The position numbers were made by a program, and so were the translations under genes. This document shows, piece after piece, positions 18,553 through 58,142 of a stretch of 64,000 bases of DNA; the stretch's first letter is position 1, and each line of letters starts with the position of its first letter. Source of the stretch: Bradyrhizobium icense. Lineage in GTDB: Bacteria > Pseudomonadota > Alphaproteobacteria > Rhizobiales > Xanthobacteraceae. The notes under the pieces were generated by a model, which saw only the letters and a list, made by a program, of their open reading frames with translations, was not told the origin of the DNA and searched no databases. The stretch lies in NCBI RefSeq assembly GCF_001693385.1, contig NZ_CP016428.1, positions 2,418,001 through 2,482,000 of the forward strand, in the 5' to 3' direction.

Positions 18553-18567
18553 TTAACCATCCTTTAA
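18553..18567. promoter_or_regulatory. TTAA-N7-TTAA motif inside the prophage (CtrA-type)
   Basis: TTAA at 18553-18556 and TTAA at 18564-18567 are separated by seven bases, matching the full CtrA consensus of alphaproteobacteria. It covers the end of the upstream small gene and lies about 100 bases before the membrane protein/methyltransferase pair. A chance match is possible because part is coding. Confidence 0.35.
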
Positions 18568-49278: not shown

Positions 49279-51082
<1,804 letters not shown>

Positions 51083-51099
<17 letters not shown>

Positions 51100-53157: not shown

Positions 53158-53209
53158 GTCAGGTGTACGCGACTTCGATAATCCTTCGCGTAAGCCTACG
53201 CAGGGCGTT

Positions 53210-53224
53210 TTAAGAGTTGGTTAA
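53210..53224. promoter_or_regulatory. CtrA-type box 1 (TTAA-N7-TTAA)
   Basis: TTAAGAGTTGGTTAA, a perfect match to the full CtrA site, lies 53 bases upstream of the DUF2336 start. Cell-cycle control of that gene is inferred. Confidence 0.75.
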
Positions 53225-53310
53225 GGAAAACAGCCTCTGAAGAAATCCGATAAAATGTGAGCTTTCGGTAGGGGATGCGCCAAAAACCGTAACTCTACCG
53301 CCTGCACAAA

Positions 53311-53325
53311 TTAAGATGCCGTTAA
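53311..53325. promoter_or_regulatory. CtrA-type box 2 (TTAA-N7-TTAA)
   Basis: TTAAGATGCCGTTAA, also perfect, lies 70 bases upstream of the small gene at 53396 and about 150 bases from the DUF2336 start. Each divergent gene therefore has its own nearest box. Confidence 0.75.
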
Positions 53326-53395
53326 CCACGTTCTGTTCTGAATAATGACATGTCGCCGGCCAAGTCGTGACCGCGGCGACCAGAGAGAACGGAAT

Positions 53396-53613: not shown

Positions 53614-54387
53614 ATGCCGGAGCTGTGCCTCCCGATCCGGACCACCGGGCTTCGGTCACTCCCGGCTCTTATGCTGTTCGTGGCAAGTGCTGTGCTTGGC
53701 GGTTGCAGCGGCGGCGATTTCGGCCGCACCCGCGCGGACATGCGCAACGACGACATGCACCGCTGGCTGGGGGCCGAGGCCACCGCAAGCGTCGGCCTCA
53801 AGCCTTCACACTTCCAGCTCACCGAAAACGAACGCCAGCTTCGCGATCTCGCCTATCCCCTGATCGAGCCGCCGCATTCGCGGCCCGCCTGGAAGAGCGT
53901 GTTCGGCGATTACCAGCCGCTGCCTTCGCCATGGCGGCAGAAGGTGGTGTTCGACCGCACCACCTACGGACGCGCCTTGATCGACGAGCCGCACCGCTCG
54001 CACACCTCGCGCTATCAGCAGTTGATCGAGGACGTTCGCAACGACATCACGAGGTTCGAGCCGTTTTTTGCCTCCGCCATCCGCGTCATCGAACTCGACC
54101 GCAAGCGCAGCGCCAGCCTGAGGATGGTGTCGGAACTGTCGCCGCGCGAACAGGCGGACGCGATCGCGCGCATGGAAGAGAACACGCTTATCGTGCAATG
54201 GGTCCAGCAATGCCTGGAGCGGCGTATCTCGTCGTATCGCTGGGCGCTCGAGCGACTGGTGATCCATGCGCCCGACGGGATCGCCGCCGACGCCGACCGC
54301 CTGATCGGCGAACTCGCCGCGCAAACCGCCAACCCGCCGGTTGCCGCCCAGCCGGTGATCGGGCGTGCGGTGACGGTGAAGGGTTAG
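53614..54387 (+). CDS. Predicted lipoprotein of unknown function
   Basis: A 257-residue protein with a signal and lipobox (FVASAVLGGC, lipidation at about Cys31). The mature region has SHFQLTENERQLRDLAYPLI and a long helical stretch (FEPFFASAIRVIELDRKRSA). No named family was recognised, but it looks conserved in this genus. It should sit in the inner or outer membrane facing the periplasm. It is the last core gene before the IS elements. Confidence 0.7.
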   Translation: MPELCLPIRTTGLRSLPALMLFVASAVLGGCSGGDFGRTRADMRNDDMHRWLGAEATASVGLKPSHFQLTENERQLRDLAYPLIEPPHSRPAWKSVFGDYQPLPSPWRQKVVFDRTTYGRALIDEPHRSHTSRYQQLIEDVRNDITRFEPFFASAIRVIELDRKRSASLRMVSELSPREQADAIARMEENTLIVQWVQQCLERRISSYRWALERLVIHAPDGIAADADRLIGELAAQTANPPVAAQPVIGRAVTVKG

Positions 54388-54490: not shown

Positions 54491-56005
54491 GGCCGATTCT
54501 GTTGAAAAAGGCGGCTGTTGCGACGCAGAGATATCAGTGATTCAGTCTGTCTAAATTGGCAGGACTGAAGATCATGATGGGACACCGGCAAGTCGAACAG
54601 GCTGCGTTGTTCTATGAGTTCTCGCTCGAAAGGCATGTCCCGGCCGACCACCTGCTCCGATCAATCGATAGGTTCGTAGAGCTTGAGGAGCTGCGACGGG
54701 AACTGGCGCCGTTCTACAGCAACATCGGACGGCCTTCGATCGATCCCGAGCTGATGATCAGGATGCTCCTAATCGGCTATTGCTTCGGCATACGATCGGA
54801 GCGGCGCCTCTGCGATGAAGTCCACCTCAATCTGGCGTACCGCTGGTTTTGTCGGCTGGGTCTGGACGGGGCTGTCCCCGATCACTCGACGTTCTCGAAG
54901 AACAGGCACGGTCGCTTCCGTGAGAGCGATCTCTTCCGTCGTGTATTCGAGATCGTCTTGCGCCGCTGTATCCGGGAGCGGCTGGTCGGTGGCGAAGGGT
55001 TCGCAGTCGACGCGAGCCTGATCAAGGCGGATGCCAATCGACAGAAGGGAATCGAAGGCGACAAGGGACTTCCACCGGAGGCGGCATGCCGGGCGATAGA
55101 TGAGTATCTGGCTGTCCTCGATGATGCCGCCTTCGGAGCAGCGACCGAGGTCACGCCGAAGTTCGTGTCGCCCTCGGACCCGGCGGCGCGTTGGACGGGG
55201 GCGCACGGCGGTCAAGCCTTCTTCGCCTACTCGACGAACTACCTGGTCGACATCGATAACGCGATCATCGTTGATGTCGAGGCGACCACGGCAATCCGCC
55301 AGGCGGAAGTGTTGGCCGCCAAGCGCATGATCCAACGTTCGCTCGAACGGTTCGACCTCTATCCAAGCCGGCTTCTCGGGGACAGCGCCTATGGCTCGGC
55401 CGAGATGCTTGGGTGGCTGTTCTACGACCATGGGATCGAGCCGCACGTGACCGTCTTTGACAAGTCGGCCCGCACGGACGGGACCTTCTCGCGCGAGGAC
55501 TTCATCTATGACCATGCCGGGGACGTCTATCGTTGCCCCGGTGGCAAAACCCTCACCACCACAGGGACGCCAGTGAACGATGAGGCGACGATCCTCTACC
55601 GTGCGAGCAAGCACGATTGTCAAGCATGCTCTCTGAGAAGCAGGTGTTGCCCCAACACTCCGGCCCGGAAAGTGCCGCGCTCGGTCTACGAGGGCGCTCG
55701 CGACTTGGCGCGCGAGATCGCAAGATCATGGGAGGGCCGCACTTCGCGCCGGCTCCGGAAGAAGATCGAGATGCTGTTCGCGCACCTCAAGCGCATTCTC
55801 AAGCTCGACCGGCTGCGGCTAAGGGGCCCGAACGGCGCGCGTGACGAGTTCACCCTCGCTGCCACCGCTCAGAACCTCCGTAAGATGGCCAAGCTGATCC
55901 CGATGCCCGCGCTGACGCCCGCGTGAGGTCAACCACCCCAGCTCGTCCGCGGAACAGTGGGTGCTCACGACGAAACTACTGCCGACTTTTTCAACAGAAT
56001 CGGCC
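54491..56005 (+). mobile_element. IS1182-like insertion sequence, element A (1515 bp)
   Basis: Terminal inverted repeats of 25 bp are visible: GGCCGATTCTGTTGAAAAAG plus GCGGC at the left (54491-54515) and the same with TCGGC at the right (55981-56005 reversed), one mismatch. The element carries a single transposase. No clear target duplication was seen in the flanks. It is intact. Confidence 0.9.
54574..55926 (+). CDS. Transposase of element A (IS1182 family, DDE type)
   Basis: A 450-residue transposase from ATG 54574; AGGA lies upstream. The N-terminal DUF772-type region holds FYSNIGRPSIDPELMIRMLL and RLCDEVHLNLAYRWFCRLGL. The catalytic core includes FAVDASLIKADA (first Asp), LLGDSAYGSAEML (second Asp), and CSLRSRCCPNTPARKVPRSV near the C-terminus before the final Glu region (KKIEMLFAHLKRILKLDRLR). 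It cuts and pastes the element. The reading frame is unbroken. Confidence 0.93.
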   Translation: MMGHRQVEQAALFYEFSLERHVPADHLLRSIDRFVELEELRRELAPFYSNIGRPSIDPELMIRMLLIGYCFGIRSERRLCDEVHLNLAYRWFCRLGLDGAVPDHSTFSKNRHGRFRESDLFRRVFEIVLRRCIRERLVGGEGFAVDASLIKADANRQKGIEGDKGLPPEAACRAIDEYLAVLDDAAFGAATEVTPKFVSPSDPAARWTGAHGGQAFFAYSTNYLVDIDNAIIVDVEATTAIRQAEVLAAKRMIQRSLERFDLYPSRLLGDSAYGSAEMLGWLFYDHGIEPHVTVFDKSARTDGTFSREDFIYDHAGDVYRCPGGKTLTTTGTPVNDEATILYRASKHDCQACSLRSRCCPNTPARKVPRSVYEGARDLAREIARSWEGRTSRRLRKKIEMLFAHLKRILKLDRLRLRGPNGARDEFTLAATAQNLRKMAKLIPMPALTPA

Positions 56006-56468: not shown

Positions 56469-58032
56469 CTTGGCCGTGTAAAAACGCCGGTCCCTAGGCA
56501 GTCGAGCGGAAGCCATGACCGGCTTGGTGTCAGGCCGCGATCGCAGCCATCAGCGGCTTGATCCCGACGATGTTCATGACCCGTGTCAGATTGTAGGCCA
56601 GGATGGAGAGCGCCATTTCGGCCGCCACTTTCGGAAGCGTTTTGGTCAGGAAGTGTGTCGCTCCCATGCGGGCTTTCATGGTGCCGAACGGATGCTCGAC
56701 TGTTTCGCGACGCTGACGCATGGCGTGCGGGTTTGCATCAAGGCGATGCTGCACAGCATCGAGCAGATGCTCATGCTCCCATCGCGTAATCCGCCGTTCT
56801 GACCCAGGCGTGCATTGGGTCTTGATCGAACAGCTTTGACAGGCCGTGGTCCAGTAGCGCCGCAGCACCTTGCCGTCTTCTTCATTCATATAGCGATATG
56901 ACAGCCGCTCCCCGGCCGGGCAGCGATAAGCGTCCTCCTCTGGCAAATAGGCAAAGTCCTGCTTACCGAAGCGTCCGTCTGCCTTAGCGCCGGACGTTAG
57001 CGGTTTGGGCAGAGTTACCGTGATGCCTGCTTCGTGGCACGCGAGAATCTCTGGGCTGTTGAAGTAGCCGCGATCGGCCACAGCTTCGAGCGTCTCAGTC
57101 TTGAGGACGGCCTTCGCCTGCTTGGCCATATTGGCCAGTTGCGCCCGATCTGAGCCGCTATTCGTCACCTCGTGCGCCACAATCAGATGGTGCTCGGTAT
57201 CCACGGCAACCTGCACATTGTAGCCGACAACGCCGGAGCCCCGGCCACTCGTCGCCATCGAACGGCTGTCGGGGTCGGTCAGCGAGATTTGCTGGTCCGG
57301 CGAAGCAAGCATTTGCTTCTCGTAAACCGCAAGCTTGCCCATTTCCTCCTTGAGCTTCGTCAGCTTCTCGGTGAGCCTTGTTACCTTTGCGGCCAGCGCC
57401 TCACTCGGCTCCTGTCGATCGGCCGTGTCAAGCTGGCTCAGATAGCGGGCGACGCTCTCCTCCAGTTGAGCACGCCGCCGTTGCACCTTCGCCTTTGTGA
57501 AGTTCCTGTCCCGGTTGTTCACGGCCTTGAACTTGCTGCCATCGATGGCGACGCTCGCCGTCGCAAGAAGCCCCATTTCGCGGCAGAGTTCGACGAAGCG
57601 CGCGCAGACCTTGCGAAGCGCCAAGCCGTTGTCCTTGCGGAAGTCCGCAATGGTCTTGTGATCGGGAGCGAGCCGGCCCAGCAGCCACATCACCTCGACA
57701 TTGCGTCCGGCTTCTCGTTCGAGCCGGCGGCTCGACTGCACCCGGTTTAGGTAGCCGTAAATGTAAAGCTTAAGCAGAACCGAGGGATGGTACGACGGCC
57801 GACCGGTGGCCGCCGGCTCCACACCCTCAAAGCCCATCTCAGCCAAACCGAGCGCATCGACAAATACGTCGATCACGCGAACTGGGTTGCTCTCGTCAAT
57901 GAAGTCATCGAGGCATTCGGGCAGCAGCGTCCGCTGCCGACGATCCGCCTCTTCAACGAAGCGCCTCATCGATTCCCCCAAAAGAATCACAGGAGAATCA
58001 TAACAGCAGCCCAGTGTTTTCACACAGCCAGG
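56469..58032 (-). mobile_element. IS1182-type insertion sequence, element B copy 1 (about 1564 bp)
   Basis: The ends CTTGGCCGTGTAAAAAC (56469-56485) and its imperfect inverse GTTTTCACACAGCCAGG (58016-58032) are the terminal repeats. The same left end and first 427 bases recur at 63574. The only gene is the leftward transposase. The left flank GGGT recurs at the right junction, but it overlaps the inverted repeat by 2 bp, so a target duplication cannot be claimed. Confidence 0.85.
56530..57969 (-). CDS. Transposase of element B (IS1182 family)
   Basis: A 479-residue transposase from ATG 57969, which follows GGGGGAA; the longer frame reaches 58068 outside the element. The N-terminal part (RTLLPECLDDFIDESNPVRV) and YHPSVLLKLYIYGYLNRVQS are typical of IS1182-group enzymes. 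The core has VAIDGSKFKAV (first Asp), AVADRGYFNSPEIL (second Asp) and ETVEHPFGTMKARMG (Glu). A coiled coil (LTEKLTKLKEEMGKLAVYEK) lies between. Intact. Confidence 0.93.
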   Translation of the reverse strand: MRRFVEEADRRQRTLLPECLDDFIDESNPVRVIDVFVDALGLAEMGFEGVEPAATGRPSYHPSVLLKLYIYGYLNRVQSSRRLEREAGRNVEVMWLLGRLAPDHKTIADFRKDNGLALRKVCARFVELCREMGLLATASVAIDGSKFKAVNNRDRNFTKAKVQRRRAQLEESVARYLSQLDTADRQEPSEALAAKVTRLTEKLTKLKEEMGKLAVYEKQMLASPDQQISLTDPDSRSMATSGRGSGVVGYNVQVAVDTEHHLIVAHEVTNSGSDRAQLANMAKQAKAVLKTETLEAVADRGYFNSPEILACHEAGITVTLPKPLTSGAKADGRFGKQDFAYLPEEDAYRCPAGERLSYRYMNEEDGKVLRRYWTTACQSCSIKTQCTPGSERRITRWEHEHLLDAVQHRLDANPHAMRQRRETVEHPFGTMKARMGATHFLTKTLPKVAAEMALSILAYNLTRVMNIVGIKPLMAAIAA

Positions 58033-58142
58033 GTCAGGAGCGACGGCCAGGTGATCCAATCGGAGCAAACTACATCTTCAATCGTCCGAAAGCCGACGCG
58101 GCTTCAGCAATCTACGACACTGTGGCCCGCCTCACTAACTGA
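58033..58142 (+). pseudogene. Remnant of a gene cut by element B
   Basis: Immediately right of the IS end a frame without a start reads GDPIGANYIFNRPKADAASA and ends at TGA 58142. It has no start codon, and the reading style is coding, so it is the C-terminal scrap of a gene whose front is lost. I do not recognise the protein. Confidence 0.4.

Follow-up and report, generated by a model that had tools for sequence, protein, structure and literature searches.

Two conserved candidate CtrA sites between divergent genes for a DUF2336 protein and an uncharacterised small protein in Bradyrhizobium icense

Do the two perfect TTAA-N7-TTAA boxes that lie between a DUF2336 gene and the divergently oriented gene of a small protein beginning with MGTIIEFP (MGT in what follows) mark promoters under the control of CtrA, and which gene does each of them serve? 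The preliminary description of this DNA (the window, a stretch of 64,000 nucleotides from Bradyrhizobium icense) had placed both boxes in 238 bases between the two genes, and they are found exactly there, in a gap of 238 nt (53158–53395). Both have the form of a CtrA full site. The gap has a G+C content of 50% compared with 62% for the window, all four of its TTAA tetramers are part of the two boxes, and it contains no CcrM site (GANTC). We consider it very probable that CtrA activates two divergent promoters in this gap, one for DUF2336 and the other for MGT and a lipoprotein gene; binding, sign and timing we infer from the sequence. Phosphorylated CtrA would occupy both boxes, of which box 1 would cover the -35 region for DUF2336 and box 2 that of the MGT-lipoprotein promoter, and RNA polymerase would be recruited to both promoters when phosphorylated CtrA is abundant, which would be in predivisional cells if Bradyrhizobium is like Caulobacter. 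In some relatives, a single box in a gap of about 130–150 nt would serve both promoters. The features of the locus are listed in Table 1.

Table 1. Features of the DUF2336-MGT locus and of a related gene pair elsewhere in the genome (positions are those of the window unless a locus is named)
Feature	Position	Strand	Remarks
Candidate CtrA site TTAGCGTTCGCTTAA	49184..49198	.	80-95 nt upstream of the divJ-like gene
DivJ-like membrane histidine kinase gene	49279..51099	+	Best NCBIfam model DivJ, 258.9 bits
DUF2336 protein gene, 325 aa	52180..53157	-	PF10098, 46.5 bits (cut-off 34.6)
Predicted -10 hexamer TAGGCT, DUF2336 promoter	53193..53198	-	Conserved bases, lowered Fitch counts; predicted start ~53186
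Box 1, predicted CtrA full site TTAAGAGTTGGTTAA	53210..53224	.	Predicted to serve DUF2336
Box 2, predicted CtrA full site TTAAGATGCCGTTAA, then CCA	53311..53325	.	Predicted to serve the MGT-lipoprotein operon
Predicted -10 region, MGT promoter	53337..53343	+	Conserved bases; predicted start ~53352; weaker than the DUF2336 one
MGTIIEFP small protein gene, 66 aa	53396..53596	+	MGxIIxFP N-terminus, ILPVxRIER core, arginine-rich C-terminus
Predicted lipoprotein gene, 257 aa, lipobox LGGC	53614..54387	+	Apparently co-operonic with MGT
Lytic transglycosylase-DUF2336 gene pair with a perfect box before it	L228:1474-4064 (G000:C1:3495973 onward)

The DUF2336 protein passes the Pfam gathering cut-off, with a match confined to profile positions 119–261 of 262, the C-terminal part of the domain. 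A sequence-profile search for relatives of solved structure gave four matches, none of them meaningful (best E-value 0.17), and no paper containing the terms DUF2336, PF10098 or COG5330 was found among 5.39 million open-licence papers. The features given for MGT come from an alignment of 32 sequences; the protein has 1811 homologues, no Pfam or NCBIfam family was found for it, and none of the 120 homologues listed carries a Pfam domain. Close behind MGT, in 130 of 135 loci, lies the lipoprotein gene, whose product was recognised by eye from a hydrophobic N-terminus followed by LGGC; the cysteine of this lipobox (Cys31) is invariant in 51 aligned sequences, and no Pfam family scored above its cut-off. 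MGT thus apparently heads an operon with the lipoprotein gene, a transcript predicted from gene order. Downstream of the latter, two open reading frames (54556–55926 and 56530–58068) resemble IS transposases by eye.

Upstream, some 4 kb from the divergent promoter pair, lies a gene for a membrane histidine kinase. DivJ was the best of 89 families for this protein, with nearly the full model covered, and the score is below the model cut-off (NF050805, 1000), so we refer to the kinase as DivJ-like. It is followed by genes for a peptidoglycan-binding protein and a DUF1491 protein. This neighbourhood recurs in the second set of loci described below: among its 80 members, the kinase gene was found in 61, the peptidoglycan-binding protein gene in 63, DUF1491 in 75, and MGT and the lipoprotein gene in 76 each. 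The distance to the kinase gene varies, as it lies within 5.5 kb in just 38 of the 69 loci that have more than 4 kb on that side. A TTAG-N7-TTAA site is found at -92 to -102 of the kinase start in all 53 loci whose sequence includes that start; this candidate is less clear-cut than boxes 1 and 2 because its spacer is conserved too. In Sinorhizobium meliloti, divJ is a direct target of CtrA (PMC4433202).

Counts of sites give moderate evidence against a chance origin of the two boxes. The window contains three perfect sites, a number reached in none of 100 dinucleotide shuffles. The third, TTAACCATCCTTTAA at 18553–18567, is 208 nt from the closest start picked by our script. When the gap itself was shuffled in the same manner 20,000 times, at least one site appeared in 122 shuffles and at least two in a single one. 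The 8.32-Mb genome has 45 distinct TTAA-N7-TTAA sites, as against 49 for a reversed control pattern; the motif is therefore not over-represented genome-wide, which we count against CtrA control. Boxes 1 and 2 form the only pair less than 1 kb apart among the 45, and 0.02–0.24 pairs as close as these two would be expected if the sites were placed anywhere or within an assumed intergenic fraction of 10–15%. Forty-two of the 45 fall outside the open reading frames picked by a simple script. The earlier statement that chance occurrence of both boxes is very unlikely thus draws moderate support from these counts and rests on the comparison with relatives, where the support is strong.

We compared 150 loci, including that of the window (L016): 70 from genomes of the same family and a second set of 80. 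In the family set, 112 of 149 genomes had a DUF2336 match (the present genome included), and 70 loci were read, the best 30 and then 40 more. The second set comprises the best 80 of 114 loci, 71 of them from Bradyrhizobium or Tardiphaga and the remainder from other metagenome-assembled genomes. At least four places are counted twice among the 150 (L018 = L104, L021 = L152, L022 = L150 and L026 = L160) and most loci belong to close relatives, a kinship that is addressed by a tree-based count of changes. MGT was found in 135 of the 150 loci; among the 15 others, 12 had at most 1.5 kb of flanking sequence on the MGT side and L163 had 2.4 kb, while in L095 and L141 no MGT gene was present within 6 kb. 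In these two loci, a box or boxes still stand beside DUF2336.

Upstream of DUF2336, 128 of the 150 loci have a perfect box and 149 a box with no more than one mismatch; the sole locus with two is probably L072, where a TTAG-type box lies just outside the scanned stretch. Within the family, TTA[AG]-N7-TTAA was found in all 70 loci. The best 30, the window's own among them, all have a perfect box with its near end about 46–56 nt upstream of the DUF2336 start. All 48 loci at 50% identity or more have a perfect box; in the 22 most distant loci, the box is of the TTAG type in 21 and perfect in one (L085), a shift that speaks against CtrA. The second set has a perfect box in 79 of 80 loci and one mismatch in L156. 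Absence of the boxes from relatives had been named in the preliminary description as the outcome that would overturn its claim, and the comparison gave the opposite result. The spacing is specific: over the 110 nt preceding DUF2336, two TTAA tetramers are separated by 7 nt in 128 of 150 loci, by 13 nt in 35, by 12 nt in 12, and by any other distance from 0 to 20 nt in at most four. On a tree of DUF2336 proteins, Fitch parsimony assigned 0, 0, 0, 0, 2, 0, 0 and 1 changes to the eight TTAA columns, 8–28 to the columns of the spacer and a median of 40 to the flanks. The anchoring pattern itself keeps the counts low to some extent at the anchor columns; it does not force the near-fixed distance of the box from the start codon and the -10 element. 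Fifty distinct spacers occur among the 128 loci with at least 50% identity, and at random positions in the same loci a perfect box turned up in 2 of 20,000 trials. The pattern is that of a site kept by selection.

Box 2 is conserved in much the same manner. For each of the 135 loci with MGT, we took the best box that ends 25–100 nt ahead of the MGT start: 106 of these boxes are perfect, 25 have a single mismatch, one has two and three have three, so that 131 loci have at most one. In one clade (9 of the 135 loci), box 2 reads TTTACACCCCGTTAA, which we count against a CtrA site. In 12 loci (L020, L021, L022, L032, L054, L131, L139, L140, L144, L150, L152 and L165), DUF2336 and MGT are 0.55–2.1 kb apart; these represent 10 distinct places (L021 = L152, L022 = L150) and fewer independent events. 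There, DUF2336 has a perfect box 48–71 nt upstream, and on the MGT side a box starts 76–87 nt upstream, of the TTAG type in L165 and perfect elsewhere; in L021 and L152, the MGT start was called too far in, which places the box at -48. As each gene keeps its own box where the two are far apart, we assign box 1 to DUF2336 and box 2 to MGT. In L139 and L140, with the genes about 2 kb apart, a box-2-like site stands on either side, as though inserted DNA had brought a short duplication with it. On the MGT side, 130 loci could be anchored (L065, L071, L073, L075 and L084 had no box suitable for this). A single box is common to both genes in 32 of them, with gaps of 127–232 nt and median distances of 74 nt from box to MGT and 51 nt from DUF2336 to box; the other 98 have a box for each gene, with medians of 69.5 and 52 nt. 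The distances agree between the two arrangements, as expected for one element that is either shared or split. Bradyrhizobium has the two promoters at a greater distance from one another, with a separate box for each.

Conserved bases at a fixed distance from the boxes predict the positions of the -10 elements. On the DUF2336 strand, counted from the start of the box, the T at +26, the A at +27 and the T at +31 are conserved in 94, 92 and 92%, respectively, of the 48 loci of the family with at least 50% identity. In the 22 distant loci, the element is less clear, with just T at +26 and A at +28 in 73%, which counts against the proposed promoter. For MGT, 95% of the 130 loci have T at +28 and 97% have A at +30 on its strand, and the boxes run on as TTAACCAnG; TTAACCAT is a published ungapped variant of the CtrA site (PMC6180460). 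The MGT -10 element of the window itself is weak (CTGAAT), a further point against. Placing the conserved A at -11 would put the first (5') base of the box at about -38 for DUF2336 and at about -41 for MGT, counted from predicted transcription starts, so that each box is predicted to overlie the -35 region, upstream of the -10. In Caulobacter, the 5' base of a full site is most commonly near -35, and at -39 in ctrA P2, and a full site in such a position accompanies activation in predivisional cells (PMC4287350). The geometry of box, -10 element and start codon fits CtrA activation as described in that organism.

The genome encodes a CtrA with 84% identity over 226 residues to Caulobacter CtrA, the next best regulator having 38%. 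In the DNA-binding region, this protein and that of Caulobacter are almost identical, and one stretch of 50 residues is the same in both. Together with the conservation of the boxes and a geometry fitting activation, this supports the link to the alphaproteobacterial cell cycle that had been proposed for the two genes, and both very probably belong to the cell-cycle programme. Other perfect sites were found beside fliO (L185), upstream of minC (L193) and upstream of a gene for an AMIN-domain amidase (L177). Two results from the rest of the genome weigh on the other side: strict patterns gave no box within 500 nt upstream of ctrA, and a Pfam search with 20 of the 55 genes that follow the 42 non-coding sites matched 14, most without a recognisable identity as a CtrA target. 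DUF2336 has eight matches in the genome, one of which is encoded directly behind a lytic transglycosylase gene with a perfect upstream box. When this pair was followed through 30 loci read from 75 matching genomes (the present one included), a TTAA- or TTAG-type box was found within 300 nt of the transglycosylase start in 25 and a DUF2336 gene nearby on the same strand in 27. Lists of CtrA targets have been published for Caulobacter (PMC4287350) and Sinorhizobium (PMC4433202); we found no CtrA binding study for Bradyrhizobium in the open-licence literature, and the main text of a comparative survey of CtrA regulons from 2010 does not mention the genus (PMC2877005).

At a wider taxonomic range, MGT matched 80 of 249 genomes from the order (the present one included, and some weakly) and one of 289 genomes across the class, the present one. 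In 22 further loci from the order (L206–L227), DUF2336 was read as divergent from MGT in 11, and nine have a box no more than 130 nt from the start of MGT (seven of the TTAG type and two perfect), a yield that tells against CtrA; misplaced starts preclude a judgement for L219 and for L222, which is one of the 11. Six loci of one family with a divergent MGT-DUF2336 pair (L206, L207, L209, L211, L214 and L217) have no box within 400 nt, which is likewise counted against.

Among other explanations, the strongest is that CtrA binds and yet acts as a repressor, either at both promoters or at one of them, with or without activation of the other, which we regard as unlikely. From a single site in Caulobacter, CtrA represses flgBp and activates fliOp (PMC6180460), and it represses minCD in S. 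meliloti (PMC4433202). Half sites over the -10 accompany repression in Caulobacter (PMC4287350), and 47 of the 150 loci have a further TTAA 12–13 nt from box 1, near the expected -10 of MGT. This extra TTAA is missing from the window, however, and the predicted positions of both full sites correspond to the activating position in Caulobacter.

That a different regulator recognises the palindrome would be conceivable for boxes known from sequence alone in a genome where 11 further response-regulator-like proteins align to CtrA over at least 200 residues. We give this little credence, since TTAA-N7-TTAA is the published CtrA full site (PMC6180460, PMC4287350), just one protein comes close to CtrA, with a DNA-binding region almost identical to that of Caulobacter, and the same type of site occurs at minC and fliO. 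Coincidence in AT-rich intergenic DNA could appeal to a genome count no higher than that of the reversed control, to the location of nearly all sites outside the picked reading frames and to a gap that is AT-richer than the window, but the relatives keep both boxes, their spacing and their position while the spacer turns over. On this conservation we reject chance, which appears next to impossible. Activation of both promoters by CtrA remains the reading that we prefer.

A similar arrangement has been described in Rhodobacter sphaeroides, where CtrA sites likewise lie near the -35 of divergent promoters, with one shared site in fliF2p-fliL2p and two sites in flgB2p-fliI2p; one-site and two-site architectures thus both exist, the arrangement differs between species, and the promoters have an invariant A at -11 that matches the conserved A found here (PMC6180460). 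In contrast to the pair described here, those are flagellar genes, and the two-site pair has a 6-bp spacing and 47 bp between the transcription starts (PMC6180460); in Bradyrhizobium, both sites have the perfect N7 spacing, are 101 nt apart and flank uncharacterised genes. Full-site promoters of Caulobacter such as ctrA P2 have the same TTAA-N7-TTAA with the 5' base close to -39 (PMC4287350), whereas the Bradyrhizobium sites are predicted from conservation only and form a divergent pair in another order. The direct CtrA regulon of S. meliloti includes divJ and minCD, and the divJ-like gene and minC carry candidate boxes here too; the passages describing that regulon name no DUF2336 or MGTIIEFP gene (PMC4433202).

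Three of the present observations go beyond the preliminary description, namely the apparent operon of MGT with the lipoprotein gene, the divJ-like kinase with a candidate box of its own, and the single shared box of some relatives. Since the divJ-like kinase gene also has a conserved site of this kind, the cluster is probably connected to the DivJ-DivK-CckA-CtrA circuit. The divergent linkage of the genes, their conserved co-regulation and their position next to the divJ-like gene suggest that the products form one module at division or at the pole, which perhaps feeds back on the CtrA pathway. The broader proposal that the DUF2336 protein, the MGT protein and the lipoprotein make up an unrecognised module across many families of the order, acting together at division or the pole and feeding back on the adjacent DivJ-CtrA circuit, with a divergent promoter that evolved between one shared and two private boxes, is tentative, and we think it somewhat improbable as a whole. 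The genes would be new targets of a known regulator and members of a well-known type of regulon, and the proteins themselves would be the interesting part. The locus brings together three conserved candidate CtrA targets, DUF2336, the family of 66-residue proteins and the lipoprotein, next to a divJ-like kinase, and its one-box, two-box and far-apart alleles may offer natural material on how one transcription-factor site becomes two.
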